A DNA stretch of 9,431 bases from T1SED10-198M sp003554345 [NCBI: Candidatus Sumerlaeota bacterium] (lineage in GTDB: Bacteria > Sumerlaeota > T1SED10-198M), in the NCBI GenBank assembly GCA_003554345.1, contig PWGE01000033.1:1-9431 (forward strand). The letters are read 5' to 3'. The position numbers and the translations under genes were made by a program. Below the pieces are notes generated by a model. That model made no database searches. It was not told the DNA's origin and was given only the letters and a program-made list of their open reading frames with translations. Position 1 is the first letter of the stretch, and every line of letters starts with the position of its first letter. Positions 707 to 7,340 of the stretch are shown here, piece after piece.

Positions 707-3523
707 ATGAAGTTCAAAATCAACAAGTCAGTTATATTTTTACTTTTCATGTGTTGCAGCACTCTTCTTTTTTGCTGGACTGATCCCGACAGGGATTTAG
801 AACGTCGGACCCTGATGGTAGATCCCACCATCGATGAGAAAGAACCTTTTTGTTATCTTGCAAAGTCAACCACCACCTTATCCCTACCCGGCACTGATGG
901 AACGCAGGTTACTTTTGATGGATCCCTTTATACAGGAGCAGCTGAACTGGCCTTTTTTTATGGTAAACCTTTACAACCTCTTCTGGCACGCAACAGGGAG
1001 CTGACAGATGGATGGATACCCATTGTACAATACCAGTTTTCAGAAAAAGGAATAGAATACCACATTGAAGCCTTTTCTTATCCTCTGGATGGAGATATAG
1101 ACCAGGCCATGATCAACTTTATTCAGGTTCGTATGACAAACAATACTGAAGAAACCACCCGTGGATATTTTTCTCCTGCTATTCGTTTCACAGGCATTGA
1201 TCATCGATTCGAACATATGCGTCCTTATGATTACAATCCCGAATGGGAATATACAATGGATAACGGCTATCTGGCTCGTGAAGAAGAGTCCCTGTTTTTT
1301 TACCCTCCTACCGCAACTCTTAAAGTTGTTCCCGGTATCACATATGAAGAACCATACAGAGGATCTGACTTTCATCTGATAGATAGCTCCCCTCATGGTT
1401 TTGCTTTTTTTAACCCTGAGTTAGAACCCGGGGAATCAAACGTTTTACACTTCTTTTTCCCCCGAAAACCTGTCCCTCTGGAAGAAAAAGAACTTTTAAA
1501 AAAGATACAAAAACTGGATTATTCACAATACCGAAAAGAAACCCTTAACTACTGGAAAAATCTTTACCAGCAAGGGGCTGAACTCCACATACCAGAAGCA
1601 AAAGTCCAGGAGGCACATAAAGCCAGCCTGATGTACACCTGGCAGGGAATCTGGAGAAACGAAGATAAAGACTGGATACAGGGTGTAAATAAGCTTCAAT
1701 ACCGTGGTTTCTGGTTAAGAGATGGAGCATATATTTTACGCAACCATGATATATGGGGTCATAATGATCTGGTTCGTAAATTACTTCAAATATATCCTGA
1801 TTATCAAAATGAAGAAGGATTATTTCTTTCCTGGGAAGGCCAATTAGACGGCTTCGGACAAGCCCTGTATACCCTCGCCCAACATGCACTTATAACGCGG
1901 GACAGAGAGTACGCCGCTGAGATCTATCCCCACTTTATAAAGGCAATGGAATGGTTATATAATACCCGTGAAGAAGATGAGATGAACTTGATGCCACCAT
2001 CCAGTTCCGGAGACAATGAACTTATTGAAGGCCGTTATACCGGTCATAATCTCTGGGCACTGCTTGGTGTTCGTTCTGCCATCCGTCTCGCCTTATTTTT
2101 AGAAAAGGAAGAGGACGCTCAATACTTCAAAGAACAATATGAGGAATTTAAAACTGTTTTCAAGGAAAAATTGCGACTGAATACCGGAAAGGAGGGCGTC
2201 ATTCCGCCTGGTATTGATACAGAAGGTGGACAGGACTGGGGCAATCTCATCGGTCTCTTTCCCACGGAAGTGCTCCATCCTGACGATCCTCGCATATACT
2301 CAACACTGCAGTATTTACGCCGGGAGAAATATCAGGAAGGGTGCATGACATATCTGGGAAACATACACCATTACCTGACAGTCAAAGCGACTCAAAATTT
2401 TTTAATGACACAACAACCTCAAGAGGTACTCAGGGACTTTTATTCTATTCTGGTCCATATGGGTTCCTGTCATGAAATGTTCGAATGGGAAGCTCAACCC
2501 TGGGGTGACAGAGACACTGCAGGCAACCTTCCACCTCACGGATGGGGAGCCGCCATGTTTAATCTTCTCCTGAGAAACATGCTTGTCCAGGAAAGGGGAG
2601 GAGATGGCGGTATCAACTGTCGCAACCTCCATATTTTTTCAGTTATATCACCGGAATGGGCACAGGAAGGTAAAAACATTTCCCTGCAAAACGCTGTGAC
2701 AGACCTGGGCAGGATTAGCCAGAAGCTCACTTTCACATCAGAGGGAGCAACTCTTTCTTTTGAGAGTGATTTTCATACCAACCCGGCAGAAATCGTATTT
2801 ACCGTTCCCTGTTTTGTTTCCCTCACCTCTTTTGAGACAGATGCACAAAAATCTGATAAAAAAGGAAACAATATTCATTTTTCACCGGATCTCACCCATG
2901 CAGAGTTCCAGTGGGAAATTGAAAGTCACCAACATACAAGTTTCAAAAAAGCATTACATGAGTACAGGCAAGAATACCGTCGGCGTTTTCAACAATATGT
3001 CAAGGAAGGGCATCCTCCCTTCAAAATATCTCCACCTCCCTTGAAAGATGACAGCCTGAGAAAAAAAGAATATAAAACAATGTATTACCCCTCAGGCAAA
3101 AGCATTGCCGTGGGAAAACCAGTTCAGGCAGGCAGCCCTATAGACGAGGCCTTTGCTCCTTCCATGGCAGTAAATGGAAAAATTTATGACCGTGTTAATT
3201 CCTTCTGGGCCGGGGGAGGTCTTCCTCAATGGCTAAAAATTGATTTAGAAGACACTCATCTCGTCAATAGCATCCATGTTTTCCCCTATTGGGATGGAGC
3301 AAGATACTATCAATACAATGTTGAGGTATCTGAAGATGGAAAGTTATGGAAAGAGGTGGCAGATATGAAAAACAACACTACACCCTCTTCCCCCCTGGGA
3401 TTTAAGCATCAATTTGATCCTGTAGAAGCACAATATATTCGCATAAACATTTTGTATAACAGTGAAAACCACAATGCTCATCTGGTAGAAGTAAAGGTAT
3501 TTGAAAAAACAGACGAAAAATAA
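707..3523 (+). CDS. Exported six-hairpin glycosidase-like protein with C-terminal F5/8 type C (CBM32-like) domain
   Basis: This is a 938-residue protein, probably acting on polysaccharide outside the cytoplasm. Residues 1-23 look like a signal peptide: basic MKFKINK, then a hydrophobic run ending LLFC. Cys23 could be a lipid anchor, but Phe at -1 is a poor lipobox. Residues about 45-260 are rich in beta strands and aromatics, like the beta-sandwich preceding many (alpha/alpha)6 glycosidases. Residues about 270-630 look helical, with motifs typical of six-hairpin enzymes: GFWLRDGAYIL (334-344), SWEGQLDGFGQAL (375-387), SSSGDNELIEGRYTGHNLW (432-450) and EWEAQPWGDRD (593-603). Asp/Glu in these are catalytic candidates; I cannot name the GH family. 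Residues about 790-935 match F5/8 type C domains, with GKPV, AVNGK, FWAGGG, QWLKIDLEDTHLVNSIHVF, an SEDGKLWKEV segment and a terminal beta strand. The start has GGGAG ten bases upstream. The pseudopilin operon follows 157 bases later on the same strand. Exact substrate unknown. Confidence 0.82.
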   Translation: MKFKINKSVIFLLFMCCSTLLFCWTDPDRDLERRTLMVDPTIDEKEPFCYLAKSTTTLSLPGTDGTQVTFDGSLYTGAAELAFFYGKPLQPLLARNRELTDGWIPIVQYQFSEKGIEYHIEAFSYPLDGDIDQAMINFIQVRMTNNTEETTRGYFSPAIRFTGIDHRFEHMRPYDYNPEWEYTMDNGYLAREEESLFFYPPTATLKVVPGITYEEPYRGSDFHLIDSSPHGFAFFNPELEPGESNVLHFFFPRKPVPLEEKELLKKIQKLDYSQYRKETLNYWKNLYQQGAELHIPEAKVQEAHKASLMYTWQGIWRNEDKDWIQGVNKLQYRGFWLRDGAYILRNHDIWGHNDLVRKLLQIYPDYQNEEGLFLSWEGQLDGFGQALYTLAQHALITRDREYAAEIYPHFIKAMEWLYNTREEDEMNLMPPSSSGDNELIEGRYTGHNLWALLGVRSAIRLALFLEKEEDAQYFKEQYEEFKTVFKEKLRLNTGKEGVIPPGIDTEGGQDWGNLIGLFPTEVLHPDDPRIYSTLQYLRREKYQEGCMTYLGNIHHYLTVKATQNFLMTQQPQEVLRDFYSILVHMGSCHEMFEWEAQPWGDRDTAGNLPPHGWGAAMFNLLLRNMLVQERGGDGGINCRNLHIFSVISPEWAQEGKNISLQNAVTDLGRISQKLTFTSEGATLSFESDFHTNPAEIVFTVPCFVSLTSFETDAQKSDKKGNNIHFSPDLTHAEFQWEIESHQHTSFKKALHEYRQEYRRRFQQYVKEGHPPFKISPPPLKDDSLRKKEYKTMYYPSGKSIAVGKPVQAGSPIDEAFAPSMAVNGKIYDRVNSFWAGGGLPQWLKIDLEDTHLVNSIHVFPYWDGARYYQYNVEVSEDGKLWKEVADMKNNTTPSSPLGFKHQFDPVEAQYIRINILYNSENHNAHLVEVKVFEKTDEK

Positions 3524-3680: not shown

Positions 3681-4397
3681 ATGAATAAAAAATCGGGGTT
3701 TACCCTCCTTGAAATCATTGTAGTGGCGGCTTTGATATCGCTCTTGTCTGGTATAGCGGTTATATCCATCCGAACACTTTATGAAAGGGCCCAAATCAAC
3801 ACCACTCGTGCAGAAGTTGGCCAGATATCCAAAGCCCTCAGTTTTGCTCATCAGGATACGGGAATTTTCCCCAAGTTTCATGTACTGGAACAACCGGTCA
3901 CTGTTCTGGAAGATGAAGACATCTTCCCCCCTGAAGCTCTGGAGAACATACATTATATTGGAATGGACTTAAGGCAGGCTGACATGAGGCGCATTCTGGA
4001 ACGTTGGAATGGTCCTTATTGGGGGGTTTCTGTAAGAAGAAACAATCCTCCGGTTAATGTAGGTCCCGATGGACTCATAGGAACAGACGAGGATGAGATT
4101 CCCTATAATTTTCTTCTCCCCATAGATCCTTTTGGCAACCCATATGTTCTTTATCTTCTCACCTATGATCCCGACCATGAGCTGTCAGATGAACACGGAG
4201 TACGACCTATTCAGTCACCGAGTGAAGATCCTGATTTTATGTGCGCTGTTGTAAGTTATGGGCCAAGTGGATTGCCGGGAGGCGATCCCGATATTGAACG
4301 CCTGGATAATTCCACTGAAACCCGATATCAGGAAACTTTTGAAAGCTATCGGGCAGTACTTGATGAAGAATCCGATGATATTGTAATAAGTTTTTAA
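3681..4397 (+). CDS. GspG-like pseudopilin P1 (prepilin-type, Gly cleavage site)
   Basis: A prepilin-like protein of 238 residues, expected to be cleaved and N-methylated by a type IV prepilin peptidase and assembled into a periplasmic pseudopilus or pilus. Residues 1-6 (MNKKSG) are the leader, then F|TLLEIIVVAALIS with Glu5 of the mature chain and a hydrophobic helix to about residue 30. GspG-like features follow: a long amphipathic helix (R31 to about 60), RWNGPYW (108-114), PIDPFGNPYVLY (147-158, Phe for the usual Trp), SYGPSGLPGGD (192-202) and the acidic end SDDIVISF. An extra loop VGPDGLIGTDEDE (127-139) between the two GPY-type motifs resembles the C-terminal loop of P2. ATG at 3681 is chosen because GGGAAG lies about nine bases upstream and the leader is six residues. 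The in-frame ATG at 3627 would give an unlikely 24-residue leader and has no ribosome binding site. It is first of five tandem paralogues. Confidence 0.88.
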   Translation: MNKKSGFTLLEIIVVAALISLLSGIAVISIRTLYERAQINTTRAEVGQISKALSFAHQDTGIFPKFHVLEQPVTVLEDEDIFPPEALENIHYIGMDLRQADMRRILERWNGPYWGVSVRRNNPPVNVGPDGLIGTDEDEIPYNFLLPIDPFGNPYVLYLLTYDPDHELSDEHGVRPIQSPSEDPDFMCAVVSYGPSGLPGGDPDIERLDNSTETRYQETFESYRAVLDEESDDIVISF

Positions 4398-4416
4398 GAA
4401 GAATATAATACTCGCA

Positions 4417-4420
4417 GGAG
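4417..4420 (+). promoter_or_regulatory. Ribosome binding site setting a TTG start for P2
   Basis: GGAG (4417-4420, within GCAGGAG) lies seven bases before TTG at 4428. The next in-frame ATG falls inside the hydrophobic helix (mature Met8), so TTG is the only start that preserves the prepilin leader. Confidence 0.75.
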
Positions 4421-4427
4421 TAATAAC

Positions 4428-5174
4428 TTGAAAAGAAGCAAATTCCTGAAAAGAAAAAAAGCCTTTACTGCCGTTGAATTAACAATGGTTGCGGCAATAA
4501 TAGCCATTCTTTCCTTACTGATTGTTCCGGTATTAAGAAGACGTACCGAAAAGGCACGGGTATCTGCCTGCCGAAGTGAGATGAAGTCGTTTGCCACCGC
4601 ACAAACCCTTGCCCAGGCAGAAACCGGTCATTATTACCGTTTATTTGACCTTAACAGCAGACCAGAGTTTGACACGGATGATAACGATTACCTCCGGGAA
4701 GTTCCCCTGTATGACTGGAAAGGAAGGCGCTTTACCGATCAAGAGCGTCGCATCCTGGTCGATGACTGGGAAGGCCCGTATGTTGAGTTTGAAGAAACCG
4801 CTCCTGAAAAATGGATGTATCTCCAGGAGCTATTCGAACTGGCACCCTATTACTTTTTCACCCAGCCAGCTCATGAAACAGATGGAAATACCACGGGAGG
4901 CATTTACATTGACCCTCAGACCGCTCAGAATTTTGCCGAGGCAATGGTACCTCTTGACCCCTGGGGCAATCCCTATTTTTTCTTTGGCCCCGAATCAGGT
5001 GATGAAACAACCTACCATTCCAGTATTATCTGGTCTCTTGGACCCGACGGAATTGTAGGAGATAAAGATAATCCCATAGAAGTTATGGAAAATCCAGACA
5101 GTTACCGGAGAAATCCTGAAGAGGGTGGCCAGTTTGGTCAGGGTGACAGTCTTGATATATCTCACCAATTTTAG
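4428..5174 (+). CDS. GspG-like pseudopilin P2 (Ala cleavage site, TTG start)
   Basis: A 248-residue prepilin-like protein. The basic 12-residue leader ends KRKKA, cleaved before FTAVELTMVAAIIAIL. Ala is at -1 where Gly is usual, and Glu5 is kept. The hydrophobic helix ends near residue 36 and continues into a charged amphipathic helix (RRRTEKARVSACRSEM). Then come ETGHYYRLFDLNS (65-77), DDWEGPYVEF (112-121), VPLDPWGNPYFFF (174-186), the closest match here to the GspG Pro-Asp-Pro-Trp-Gly-Asn-Pro-Tyr signature, SLGPDGIVGDKDN (203-215) and the end SLDISHQF. The Gly-Pro-Asp-Gly/acidic tail corresponds in place to the calcium-binding loop of GspG. The protein is about 100 residues longer than classical GspG, mainly in the variable part between the helix and the PWG motif. 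The start is TTG, fixed by a strong ribosome binding site. Role as a pseudopilus subunit is inferred from family; partners are not in the window. Confidence 0.88.
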   Translation: MKRSKFLKRKKAFTAVELTMVAAIIAILSLLIVPVLRRRTEKARVSACRSEMKSFATAQTLAQAETGHYYRLFDLNSRPEFDTDDNDYLREVPLYDWKGRRFTDQERRILVDDWEGPYVEFEETAPEKWMYLQELFELAPYYFFTQPAHETDGNTTGGIYIDPQTAQNFAEAMVPLDPWGNPYFFFGPESGDETTYHSSIIWSLGPDGIVGDKDNPIEVMENPDSYRRNPEEGGQFGQGDSLDISHQF

Positions 5175-5193
5175 CGGGGAGGAAAAAAAGGTA

Positions 5194-5856
5194 ATGAAAT
5201 ACGTAACAACTAAGATAAACAATGAAAAAAAAGCTTTCACTCTGGTCGAAGTACTGATAACTCTAATTATTCTGACTATTCTCACCATGATTTTAGTGCC
5301 CCGGTTAACTGAGCGCACCGAGCGTGCCAGGGTCACCGCTGCCGCCTCTGACATTCGAGCTTTAGAAAGAGCCCAGAGCAGTGTAGAAATAGATACCGGC
5401 TATTTTGTTCGATTATTTGTATTAAATGACAGCCGACGCGAAGAAAATGGAAATAACCAGGAAAACAATCTTTTTCAGTATCCCCCCACGATTGAGTATG
5501 CTATAGATCCTGAAACCGGTTTATTACTAGAGGTTGACCTATCGAACGAAACTATTTATGATTGGTATGGTCCTTATATTACATACGATAAAGTATGGGA
5601 CGATCAATTTGACGAACAGGACAACCCCTATCGGCAAATTCCTCTTGACCCGTGGGGAATGCCTTATCTCTTATTCACCCATAGAGGGTTGGTTGAAGAA
5701 CGGGGAGAGCCCCAGGGCTTTATAGAGGAAACCCACGATCAATTCAACCAAATGACTATTCTAAGCACGGGACCCGACCGGAGTCCGGGTGACCGTGAGG
5801 AAGATGATGATGAATACGGGGCTCCTGATTCAGACGATATTTATCGAAGCTTTTAG
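5194..5856 (+). CDS. GspG-like pseudopilin P3 (Ala cleavage site)
   Basis: At 220 residues this is the shortest of the five. Leader residues 1-14 end NEKKA, then FTLVEVLITLIILTILTM, with Glu5 and Ala at -1. The amphipathic helix carries RTERARVTAAASDIRALERA, close to P2. EIDTGYFVRLFVLND (65-79) aligns with the ETGHYYRLFDLNS stretch of P2. YDWYGPYITY (122-131) and IPLDPWGMPYLLF (149-161) are the two GspG motifs. STGPDRSPGDREEDDDE (191-207) and the end SDDIYRSF form an acidic tail that would suit a bound divalent cation. ATG at 5194 is used rather than 5125, because the latter lies inside P2 and would give a 37-residue leader. GGGGAGG (5176-5182) sits 11 bases upstream of the chosen start, a slightly long spacing. 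The gap to P2 is 19 bases, so translation is probably from one message. Confidence 0.87.
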   Translation: MKYVTTKINNEKKAFTLVEVLITLIILTILTMILVPRLTERTERARVTAAASDIRALERAQSSVEIDTGYFVRLFVLNDSRREENGNNQENNLFQYPPTIEYAIDPETGLLLEVDLSNETIYDWYGPYITYDKVWDDQFDEQDNPYRQIPLDPWGMPYLLFTHRGLVEERGEPQGFIEETHDQFNQMTILSTGPDRSPGDREEDDDEYGAPDSDDIYRSF

Positions 5857-5869
5857 AGGAGATCTTTGA

Positions 5870-6604
5870 ATGAAGCATACAAGAAAAAAAGGATTTACTT
5901 TGCCAGAATTACTGGCGGTGGTAGCTATAATTGCCATATTATCAGCTATTCTGGTACCCACCCTTTCCCAGCGCATTGACAAAGCCCGTACAGCTGCTGC
6001 TTTACAGGATATGAAAGAACTGGCTCAAGCTCAGGAAACCTGCTCGGCAATATTCGGATATTACGTGGCTTTAAGGGTGCTCAATGCCTATCCTGCTACC
6101 CGTGTAGGGGTTAGTCCCAGGCCGGATGGCGAAATTCAACAGTACAACAACACCTATCTCATTGACCCCAACCGGTCAGTTGACGACCAACTGGGCGATC
6201 AACGCACTCTGCAGGATCTTGCTGATACCTATCCCACAGCTATGGATTTCTGGGAAAAATGGCCAGGTCCATTTATAAACTTTCAACGCTTTCACGGTAA
6301 AGATGATGAAACGATTGACGCTCGATTTGACTCTCCCCTTGACCCATGGGGCTCTCCTTACCGCTTGTTTTCTCCCATAGGAATCACGGGTGATCCTCCA
6401 GAAGCCACGAATTATTCAATAGAAAGCTTTGATGATGCCCGGCTCACCACTACTGACGACTATTTCGGACGATATGCCATCGTTTCCTTTGGAAAAAATC
6501 GTGAGTTTGAAATAGATTCTTTTGAATCCACTGAAGGTATAGATGACCTGTTTTATACCTTTGGTCGTTATACCACCGAAACTGTATATAGACCCAGGTT
6601 TTAA
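5870..6604 (+). CDS. GspG-like pseudopilin P4 (Gly cleavage site)
   Basis: A prepilin-like protein of 244 residues with a short leader MKHTRKKG, then FTLPELLAVVAIIAILS: classic Gly at -1 and Glu5. QRIDKARTAAALQDMKELAQAQ continues as the amphipathic helix. FGYYVALRVLNAYP (62-75) is the counterpart of the RLFxLN stretch in P2 and P3. WPGPFINF (131-138) and SPLDPWGSPYRLF (155-167) are the GspG-type motifs. The C-terminal loop has diverged: SFGKNREFEIDSF replaces Gly-Pro-Asp-Gly, IDDLFYTF (224-231) takes the place of the usual terminal Asp-Asp-Ile, and the chain ends VYRPRF with an extra stretch of about 13 residues. Any calcium site of the GspG kind is therefore less certain here. GGAG (5858-5861) lies eight bases before ATG, directly after the P3 stop; the intergenic gap is only 13 bases. 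Confidence 0.87.
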   Translation: MKHTRKKGFTLPELLAVVAIIAILSAILVPTLSQRIDKARTAAALQDMKELAQAQETCSAIFGYYVALRVLNAYPATRVGVSPRPDGEIQQYNNTYLIDPNRSVDDQLGDQRTLQDLADTYPTAMDFWEKWPGPFINFQRFHGKDDETIDARFDSPLDPWGSPYRLFSPIGITGDPPEATNYSIESFDDARLTTTDDYFGRYAIVSFGKNREFEIDSFESTEGIDDLFYTFGRYTTETVYRPRF

Positions 6605-6619
6605 CAAATTGAAGATACC

Positions 6620-6624
6620 AAGGA
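6620..6624 (+). promoter_or_regulatory. Ribosome binding site choosing the first of two adjacent ATGs of P5
   Basis: AGGAG at 6620-6624 is eight bases before ATG 6633 and eleven before ATG 6636, so 6633 is preferred. The longer in-frame start at 6543 lies inside P4 and would put 30 extra residues ahead of a normal prepilin leader. Confidence 0.65.
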
Positions 6625-6632
6625 GTCCATAC

Positions 6633-7340
6633 ATGATGAAAAAAATAAAAGCCTTTACCCTGTTAGAACTGGTCATTGTGGTCATGATTATCGGAATACT
6701 CAGTGCTGCCCTTTTACCTGTTCTCACCAACCAGGTATTAAAGGCGCGTATTGCAAGGACAAAGAATGATATTAGAGTGTTAGAAACAGCAATATCCCGT
6801 TTCAAAATTGATACCGGCGAATATCCTCCCAGCGGAAGTGATATTACTGATAACGTGGCCACGGGGAATGGATATCTTTCCCGTTTTCTGCGTCATGAGC
6901 CTCAGGCAATGGATGTCGATGTCGGTGTTCACGAAGACGATGACATTTATGAATTTATAATGCGCATTCAGGAATACTGGGACGGTCCTTATATTGAAGT
7001 GCCTCGTGAACAGCTGGACTTTGAGGGTTATCCAGATCAGACCGAAGGTATTGCCACTTCTCTTGATGAAACCGCGCGTTCTACCGGTCGGGGAGAACCA
7101 GCGGGAAGTGATCCTAATAACCAGCAAATCCTGGATGCCTTCAGAGAGCCCTTTCGTTACATCAATCATAACGATTATGAAGAATATATGGGAACAGAAA
7201 GAGATCCTGATGATCCTTTTGCCCAAACGGAAACCTATTATAATGCTCAGACCTTTCAGATTGTTTCAGGGGGACAGGATCTTATCAGTCTTCCTGCACC
7301 TGAAATAGGTCTGGACAAAGATGATATAACTAACTTTTAA
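6633..7340 (+). CDS. GspG-like pseudopilin P5 (Ala cleavage site, degenerate PWG motif)
   Basis: A 235-residue prepilin-like protein. The leader MMKKIKA is followed by FTLLELVIVVMIIGILS, with Ala at -1 and Glu5. Next, KARIARTKNDIRVLETAISRF and KIDTGEYPP (58-66) are the closest match in the array to the classical GspG region, where an Asp-x-Gly-x-Tyr-Pro motif follows the helix. YWDGPYIEV (115-123) is intact, but the second motif has decayed to LDAFREPFRYI (167-177): Pro-Trp-Gly is lost while the Pro-Phe/aromatic pattern remains. The tail reads VSGGQDLISLP (211-221) and ends DKDDITNF, strongly resembling the Asp-Ile-x-Asn-Trp end of GspG but with Phe. It is last in the operon; recF converges 64 bases downstream. 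It may be the oldest or functionally distinct member, since it differs most in the middle from P2-P4. Confidence 0.87.
   Translation: MMKKIKAFTLLELVIVVMIIGILSAALLPVLTNQVLKARIARTKNDIRVLETAISRFKIDTGEYPPSGSDITDNVATGNGYLSRFLRHEPQAMDVDVGVHEDDDIYEFIMRIQEYWDGPYIEVPREQLDFEGYPDQTEGIATSLDETARSTGRGEPAGSDPNNQQILDAFREPFRYINHNDYEEYMGTERDPDDPFAQTETYYNAQTFQIVSGGQDLISLPAPEIGLDKDDITNF

Follow-up and report, generated by a model that had tools for sequence, protein, structure and literature searches.

Why would a bacterium encode five GspG-type pilins in a row? In textbook type II secretion systems (T2SS), a single major subunit of the G type stands behind four minor subunits. We analysed a stretch of 9,431 nt (hereafter the window; contig PWGE01000033.1 of a Candidatus Sumerlaeota bacterium), which is contig C433 of the genome G000 (2.55 Mb, 454 contigs, 87.66% complete). 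It encodes five consecutive prepilins, P1 to P5, at positions 3681–7340. We propose that all five are ancient GspG-type subunits of a type IV filament machine, none of them redundant, and that they are placed as ordered layers behind its tip; we give this reading a probability of about one half. The original prediction had described them as GspG-like pseudopilins standing alone without secretion machinery, and had suggested a multi-subunit or interchangeable pseudopilus.

Five G-type prepilins in tandem

The genes fill slots 1 to 5 of what we call the array. P1 (3681–4397, 238 residues) has the motifs GFTLLE, WNGPY and PIDPFGNPY, and a C-terminal SDDIVISF. P2 (4428–5174, 248 residues) starts with TTG, has AGGAG upstream, and contains FTA-x-E, WEGPY and PLDPWGNPY. 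P3 (5194–5856, 220 residues) shows AFTLVE, WYGPY, PLDPWGMPY and a C-terminal SDDIYRSF. P4 (5870–6604, 244 residues) carries GFTLPE, WPGPF and PLDPWGSPY, and P5 (6633–7340, 235 residues) has AFTLLE, WDGPY, a decayed DPWG block and a C-terminal DDITNF. Re-reading the sequence confirmed the predicted tandem of prepilin genes, all on the forward strand and separated by 13 to 30 bases (30, 19, 13 and 28 from P1 to P5). The predicted motifs were also correct: a Glu5 signal (FTLLE, FTAVE, FTLVE, FTLPE and FTLLE) and W-x-GP[YF] in all five, and P-[LI]-D-P-[WF]-G in P1 to P4, with LDAFREPF at that place in P5. The proteins have two further GspG-like features. The S-x-G-[PKQ]-[DNS] loop could be read in all five, and Asp-Asp-Ile/Leu occurs close to the C-terminus, where P2 has SLDI instead.

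The best-scoring NCBIfam model for each of the five is that of GspG (TIGR01710, 40.7–56.4 bits), and none reaches its equivalog cut-off of 88.85. The Pfam T2SSG cut-off of 21 bits is passed by P5 (36.7) and P2 (27.2) and missed by P3 (19.4), P1 (17.4) and P4 (10.4). We then compared slot profiles with 14 classical GspG from other phyla using hhalign, which gave probabilities of 99.6–99.9% for all slots. The alignments of P1, P2, P4 and P5 span the W-GP, DPWG and S-G-D-G blocks; that of P3 is limited to the N-terminal 66 columns, and its motifs were read by eye. The full-length G architecture is thus present (helix, W-GPY, DPWG, S-G-D-G loop), with the decay already mentioned in P5. In profile searches of the PDB, the matches to P5 and P4 lay mainly in the pilin helix.

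An identity as ordinary minor pseudopilins GspH, I, J or K fails for P1–P5, for which the GspG model is best and Glu5 is kept. Moreover, relatives encode H-, I-, J- and K-like proteins separately, next to the array. By motifs and profiles, P1–P5 are GspG-type pilins distinct from GspH–K, as the original prediction had it. They also differ, on the same kind of evidence, from the canonical GspG of T2SS (TIGR01710, PF08334). They share with it the Glu5 prepilin signal, W-x-GPY, PxDPWGxPY and the S-x-G-x-DG loop, but GspG is a single gene where there are five paralogues here. The array proteins are also longer: counted from the cleavage motif on, slot medians are 212–291 residues (range 185–471), against 125–141 residues in 13 of the 14 classical GspG read and 139 in the last. 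Canonical GspG was found elsewhere in four of the five genomes tested (seven loci above the cut-off); in the fifth, G000, none was found above the cut-off.

The array is conserved in Sumerlaeota

If the five genes recur together, the array is not a chance pattern. We searched 40 Sumerlaeota genomes and read 38 loci from 38 genomes besides the window. The P4 profile matched (E ≤ 1e-15) in 39 of the 40 genomes and was not found at this threshold in G038 (88% complete). In G011 and G029, the best match was a P3-derived slot-4 gene and a cut slot-3 gene, respectively. With the window included, 39 of the 40 genomes carry the array, or the portion that their contig holds, in the same order. All five genes are in order in 31 of the 38 loci (the end gene being cut by the contig end in four), and six loci are cut by contig ends. 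The remaining locus, in G011, has five genes with slot 4 filled by the P3-derived gene. The predicted five-gene order thus extends to 38 other Sumerlaeota loci, full or contig-cut, and this recurrence of the same genes in the same slots argues against chance.

The prepilin motif with Glu5 is kept in 33/34, 34/35, 35/36, 34/35 and 33/33 of the relatives of P1 to P5; it is unreadable in the open reading frames assigned as G010 P1, G009 P2, G032 P3 and G026 P4. W-x-GP[YF] is common, not universal (25/34, 28/35, 30/36, 35/35 and 31/33). Slots bear differing signatures, such as FTA-x-E in P2. Outside the array, an additional P4-like gene occurs in five genomes of one Sumerlaeota family, f2 (G001:C1:630103, G002:C4:8208, G003:C9:227701 on L088, G010:C63:55500 on L200 and G033:C29:11321).

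Each slot is a separate old group

An array of homologous neighbours may consist of redundant recent tandem duplicates, or of an interchangeable or phase-variable set of pilins. The adjacency and homology of the genes favour this. So does G011, where the slot-4 gene (L081:8400–9308) is a P3 duplicate (225 bits to P3, 97/83 with the P3 of the same genome): the slot was refilled by a neighbour's copy and the count of five retained. The comparisons between slots tell otherwise. Within the window, P4 scores 72 bits against P3 and 49 bits against P2. Its best match scores about 80–161 bits in 32 of the 39 other Sumerlaeota genomes, so that P4 is nearer to the corresponding genes of most other genomes than to the adjacent ones. 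Profile hidden Markov models (HMMs) of the slots gave uncut genes 158–374 bits with their own slot and at most 163 with the next best, a margin biased toward separation since the models were built from the scored sequences and the best slot was chosen. The closest call was a cut gene, G029 P3 (102 vs 100 bits). Using the window proteins as BLAST references, slots 1, 2, 4 and 5 were best matched by their own-slot window gene in the loci listed, and slot 3 by window P3 in 26 of 36 loci.

We inferred two trees. The first used a quick method on 113 rows (four outgroup rows, G026 P4 and G034 P5 omitted), and the second a careful method on 106 rows, among them those of 15 Sumerlaeota genomes with the window (two more outgroup rows omitted). 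P1, P2, P4 and P5 form one clade each, and the P3 clade includes slot 4 of G011. In the first tree, the outgroup row L131 stands weakly beside P1. By these trees, P1, P2, P4 and P5 are clear orthologous groups and P3 a weaker one, and the slots are ancient, separate groups in a fixed order. The trees reject recent tandem duplication, and a redundant or interchangeable set, which they contradict, is very improbable. The interchangeable subunits of the original prediction are therefore unsupported, since slot HMMs and trees show separate old clades in fixed order. The multi-subunit filament remains the best reading. Both trees of P1–P5 with other GspG recover slot clades, but the deep forks are weak and do not establish monophyly of the five against all other GspG. 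P5 is the slot nearest to classical GspG, with which it groups at 96 SH-aLRT in the first tree and 99/53 in the second.

A GspK gene precedes the array in most relatives

P1 adjoins GspK in most relatives. Where P1 is present with at least 2 kb of upstream room, GspK lies directly before it in 24 of 29 loci; in many of these, GspJ, I and H come further upstream, and in some GspF does as well. In G005, the operon reads PilB-PilT-GspE-GspF-H-I-J-GspK-P1-P2-P3-P4-P5, with the array at its end. Its H, I and J score below the equivalog cut-offs, and its GspK passes the Pfam T2SSK cut-off and misses that of NCBIfam. The prediction that the array stands alone holds for the window itself, truly unlinked from GspK, and does not extend to most relatives. 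Predicted promoters and terminators were close to shuffle level (12 vs 8.7, sd 3.0; 3 vs 4.2, sd 1.8) and were unused.

The Glu5 prepilin motif was found in none of 24 GspK. A lamin-tail domain in GspK scored above the Pfam cut-off in L066, L062, L071 and L074, just under it in L064 (34.2 vs 34.3) and weakly in the cut GspK of G000 (25.1). In Myxococcus xanthus, the minor pilins prime the pilus with the Glu5-less PilX on top, and a tip position has been proposed for both GspK and PilX (PMC7541494, in the part of the article cited). Hence, a GspK lacking the Glu5 motif in 24 of 24 cases is expected at the tip.

The same order in a second phylum

We surveyed 330 genomes (40 Sumerlaeota and 290 others), scoring at most eight candidates per genome. 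Among the candidates scored outside Sumerlaeota, two genomes have full arrays, G167 and G304, and G300 has one G-type gene. G304 reads GspF-H-I-J-K-X-P1-P2-P3-P4-P5, where X encodes 280 residues. G167 reads H-I-J-K-X-P1-P2-P3-P4-P5 followed by a second P5, and PilT-PilB-GspF is encoded close by on the opposite strand. Both are from a second phylum, both genomes examined from it, and they have the same order P1–P5. In the second tree their genes join the Sumerlaeota slots for P1 (98/92), P2 (100/98) and P4 (99/87), and weakly for P5 (86/49). This tree thus suggests good orthology across phyla for P1, P2 and P4, weak for P5 and unclean for P3. The GspK of the second phylum also carries the lamin-tail domain, and the combination with a helix-hairpin-helix was observed in both phyla (L066:12903–14987 and L226:4793–6667). 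The X gene stands between GspK and P1 in both second-phylum genomes (L225:11910–12752 and L226:6676–7518); it has a weak cohesin match in one (18.3 bits, below the cut-off) and none in the other.

As a control, we searched 71 loci outside Sumerlaeota, among the matches listed, for genes with both G-type motifs: 51 loci had none, 19 had one and one had two. This suggests that tandem G-type genes are uncommon in these loci. The same motif expression recovers only two to four array genes in the seven array-bearing Sumerlaeota loci. An Omnitrophota locus (L121:8682–18241) resembles the array in having GspF, two G-type pilins, H-, I- and J-like genes and GspK in one run, and its second G-type gene groups with P5 (100/82, second tree). 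Unlike the array, it has no five slots and other pilin types are intermixed. It is possibly a looser cousin.

Machine orthologues lie elsewhere in the genome

We found no gene for an ATPase, platform protein, secretin or peptidase in the window. The predicted lack of machinery holds for that stretch and not for the genome, the peptidase excepted: G000 has 19 T2SSE matches, three secretins and GspF. Contig C159 carries the end of a GspE, then GspF-H-I-J-GspK, with GspK cut by the contig end. Contig C69 carries a cut ATPase followed by PilT-PilB-PilT-GspE, the last one also cut. GspF of C159 and the GspF of G005 are 65% identical (28–38% for the other four GspF matches in G000), GspE of C69 is 69% identical to its G005 counterpart, and the J and K of C159 are weak but real matches. 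By these similarities, the genes of C69 and C159 are orthologues of the G005 machine, and we take the two contigs for probable neighbours in the genome. Hence, the absence of machinery reflects the limits of the contig, together with a genuine local separation from GspK.

Classical T2SS combine GspE and GspF with GspC, D, L and M, and are not known to have PilT or any other retraction ATPase. The array could belong to a diverged T2SS, with five G-type pseudopilins expelling substrates such as hydrolases. All five proteins score best with the GspG model, and their neighbours resemble H, I, J and K. The ATPase of G167 exceeds the GspE cut-off, near which all such ATPases score. However, the clusters of G005 (435.5 bits) and G000 (415.7 and 450.6 bits) include PilT-family ATPases above the cut-off of 319.1, and that of G167 a cut piece of one. 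The separate canonical GspG in four of five genomes also speaks against this idea, as do the secretins: that on C56 passes the PilQ cut-off (304.1 vs 284.35) and not that of GspD, and that on C102 passes neither. We consider such a T2SS improbable. The third secretin domain of G000, on C336 (L041), lies in an open frame of 1414 residues, far longer than the other two. PilM, on C432, passes its cut-off (153 vs 27). The PilB (620.2 vs 675.65) and PilC/GspF matches (435.9 vs 700 and 423.8 vs 424) fall below theirs.

The putative machine shares with type IVa pili the PilT family, a PilQ-type secretin, PilM, PilB and PilC relatives, and the set of H-, I-, J- and K-type minor pilins with a Glu5-less top subunit. 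It differs from them in that five G-type pilins come after the minor ones and in the lamin-tail domain of GspK. In the published model of the type IVa pilus, pilT is mandatory (PMC6668835, as far as the cited section goes). A multi-pilin cluster of a type IV pilus also occurs in Thermus thermophilus (Tt1218, Tt1219 and Tt1222), where some pilins are nearest to T2SS pseudopilins; those described in the part of the article cited are relatives of GspI, GspJ and PilA4, not five G-type subunits (PMC5131608).

Layers under the tip or a five-part shaft

The main rival holds that P1–P5 copolymerise as the shaft, i.e. that five major subunits make up a heteropolymeric pseudopilus or pilus. Each of P1–P5 retains Glu5 and, for the most part, the GspG-type motifs. 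P5 clusters with classical GspG, and it is this slot that has been duplicated in situ in G007, G022 and G167. In the operons that we read in G005, G007 and G304, from GspF to the end of the array, the pilins are H–K-like ones and the array alone, with no PilA seen. On the other hand, we know of no precedent for a fibre with five obligate shaft subunits, and other pilins of G000 could supply the shaft. There we read 33 pilin rows, from 30 of 35 N_methyl matches, a set that includes P1–P5, a cut P5 copy and one cut open reading frame. Fifteen of the 33 carry a C-terminal motif, [DN]PTNG, with S-x-G after it. The N-termini of these 15 are almost identical (GFTLIELLIVVAIIAILAAIAIPNFL or a close variant), and their genes are scattered over loci L001–L030 (e.g. 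L001, L002, L004 and L017). Four of them were scanned: Pfam gave N_methyl and T2SSG and no more specific family, and their resemblance to PilA is weak (61.8–80 bits, cut-off 400). Because these roughly 15 pilins could supply the shaft, we tentatively prefer layers under the tip over a five-part shaft, which we regard as a doubtful alternative.

In the preferred reading, the machine would comprise PilB/GspE and PilT-family ATPases, a PilC/GspF platform and GspH-, I-, J- and K-like minor pilins. A prepilin peptidase would mature P1–P5, which would pass from the inner membrane into the growing filament. The tip or priming complex would go ahead of them, with the Glu5-less, lamin-tail GspK as the outermost subunit. 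P1–P5 can be followed by further subunits because they kept Glu5, and would form layers in a defined series, with one or a few copies of each, linking the tip to the shaft. Their positions would be non-redundant because the genes are retained one-to-one in order. P5, the closest to GspG, would lie nearest to the shaft or form it. Retraction is suggested by the PilT-family ATPases. We infer the assembly order, the copy number, retraction and the final function, for which adhesion or twitching would be more likely than classical protein secretion. A bolder form of the idea, which we hold only tentatively and think rather unlikely, is a programmed subunit order: five obligate, non-interchangeable G-type pilins would be stacked under the lamin-tail GspK tip, the gene order K-P1-P2-P3-P4-P5 would mirror the order from tip to base, and the programme would predate the split of the two phyla or have been transferred as a unit.

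Several observations weigh against layers behind a tip. Slot 3 is the least clean: in 10 of 36 loci it is best matched by another slot than window P3, and in the second phylum it falls beside P4 in the second tree. GspK is missing upstream of P1 in the window and in five of the 29 testable loci (G010, G011, G014, G031 and G034); it lies elsewhere in G010, G011 and G014, is a cut piece in G034, and was not found in the G031 genome. The names H, I and J rest on weak sub-cut-off matches and gene order, and in C159 those of H and I on position and the prepilin motif. GspE and GspF scores do not discriminate T2SS from type IVa pili, and the G167 ATPase, as noted, passes as GspE. The components in G000 are spread over separate contigs, and no prepilin peptidase was found in this 87.7% complete genome, while one was found in all four other genomes searched. 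Finally, AlphaFold2 models of P4 and P1 from seven-row alignments had mean pLDDT values of 41.3 and 43.5, with zero residues at 90 or above, and were unused.

Other genes of the window

Upstream of P1 lies a gene for a protein of 938 residues (707–3523). The protein has an F5/8 type C domain at its C-terminus and a weak glycoside-hydrolase signal, an oligosaccharide-amylase/GH116-like region below the cut-offs. This gene occupies the spot directly before P1 where most relatives carry GspK. Downstream of the array, recF and ribH are on the opposite strand to P1–P5, and partial hflK and trxB genes stand at the two ends of the window.

Implications

We found no description of the five-pilin array among the titles and abstract openings listed by searches of the open-licence literature on Sumerlaeota pili or secretion, multiple GspG, lamin-tail pilins and Omnitrophota pseudopilins. 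The search for a lamin tail domain with a pilin gave a match on haloarchaeal biofilm. To our knowledge, there is no widely used cultured model of Sumerlaeota. Judged from sequence comparison, the array is a conserved variant within the superfamily of type IV filaments. One lineage of machines has retained five different G-type subunits in a single order across one phylum as well as in another. This would provide a testable case for how the superfamily obtains a defined order of subunits, and may give a handle on adhesion or motility in Sumerlaeota.

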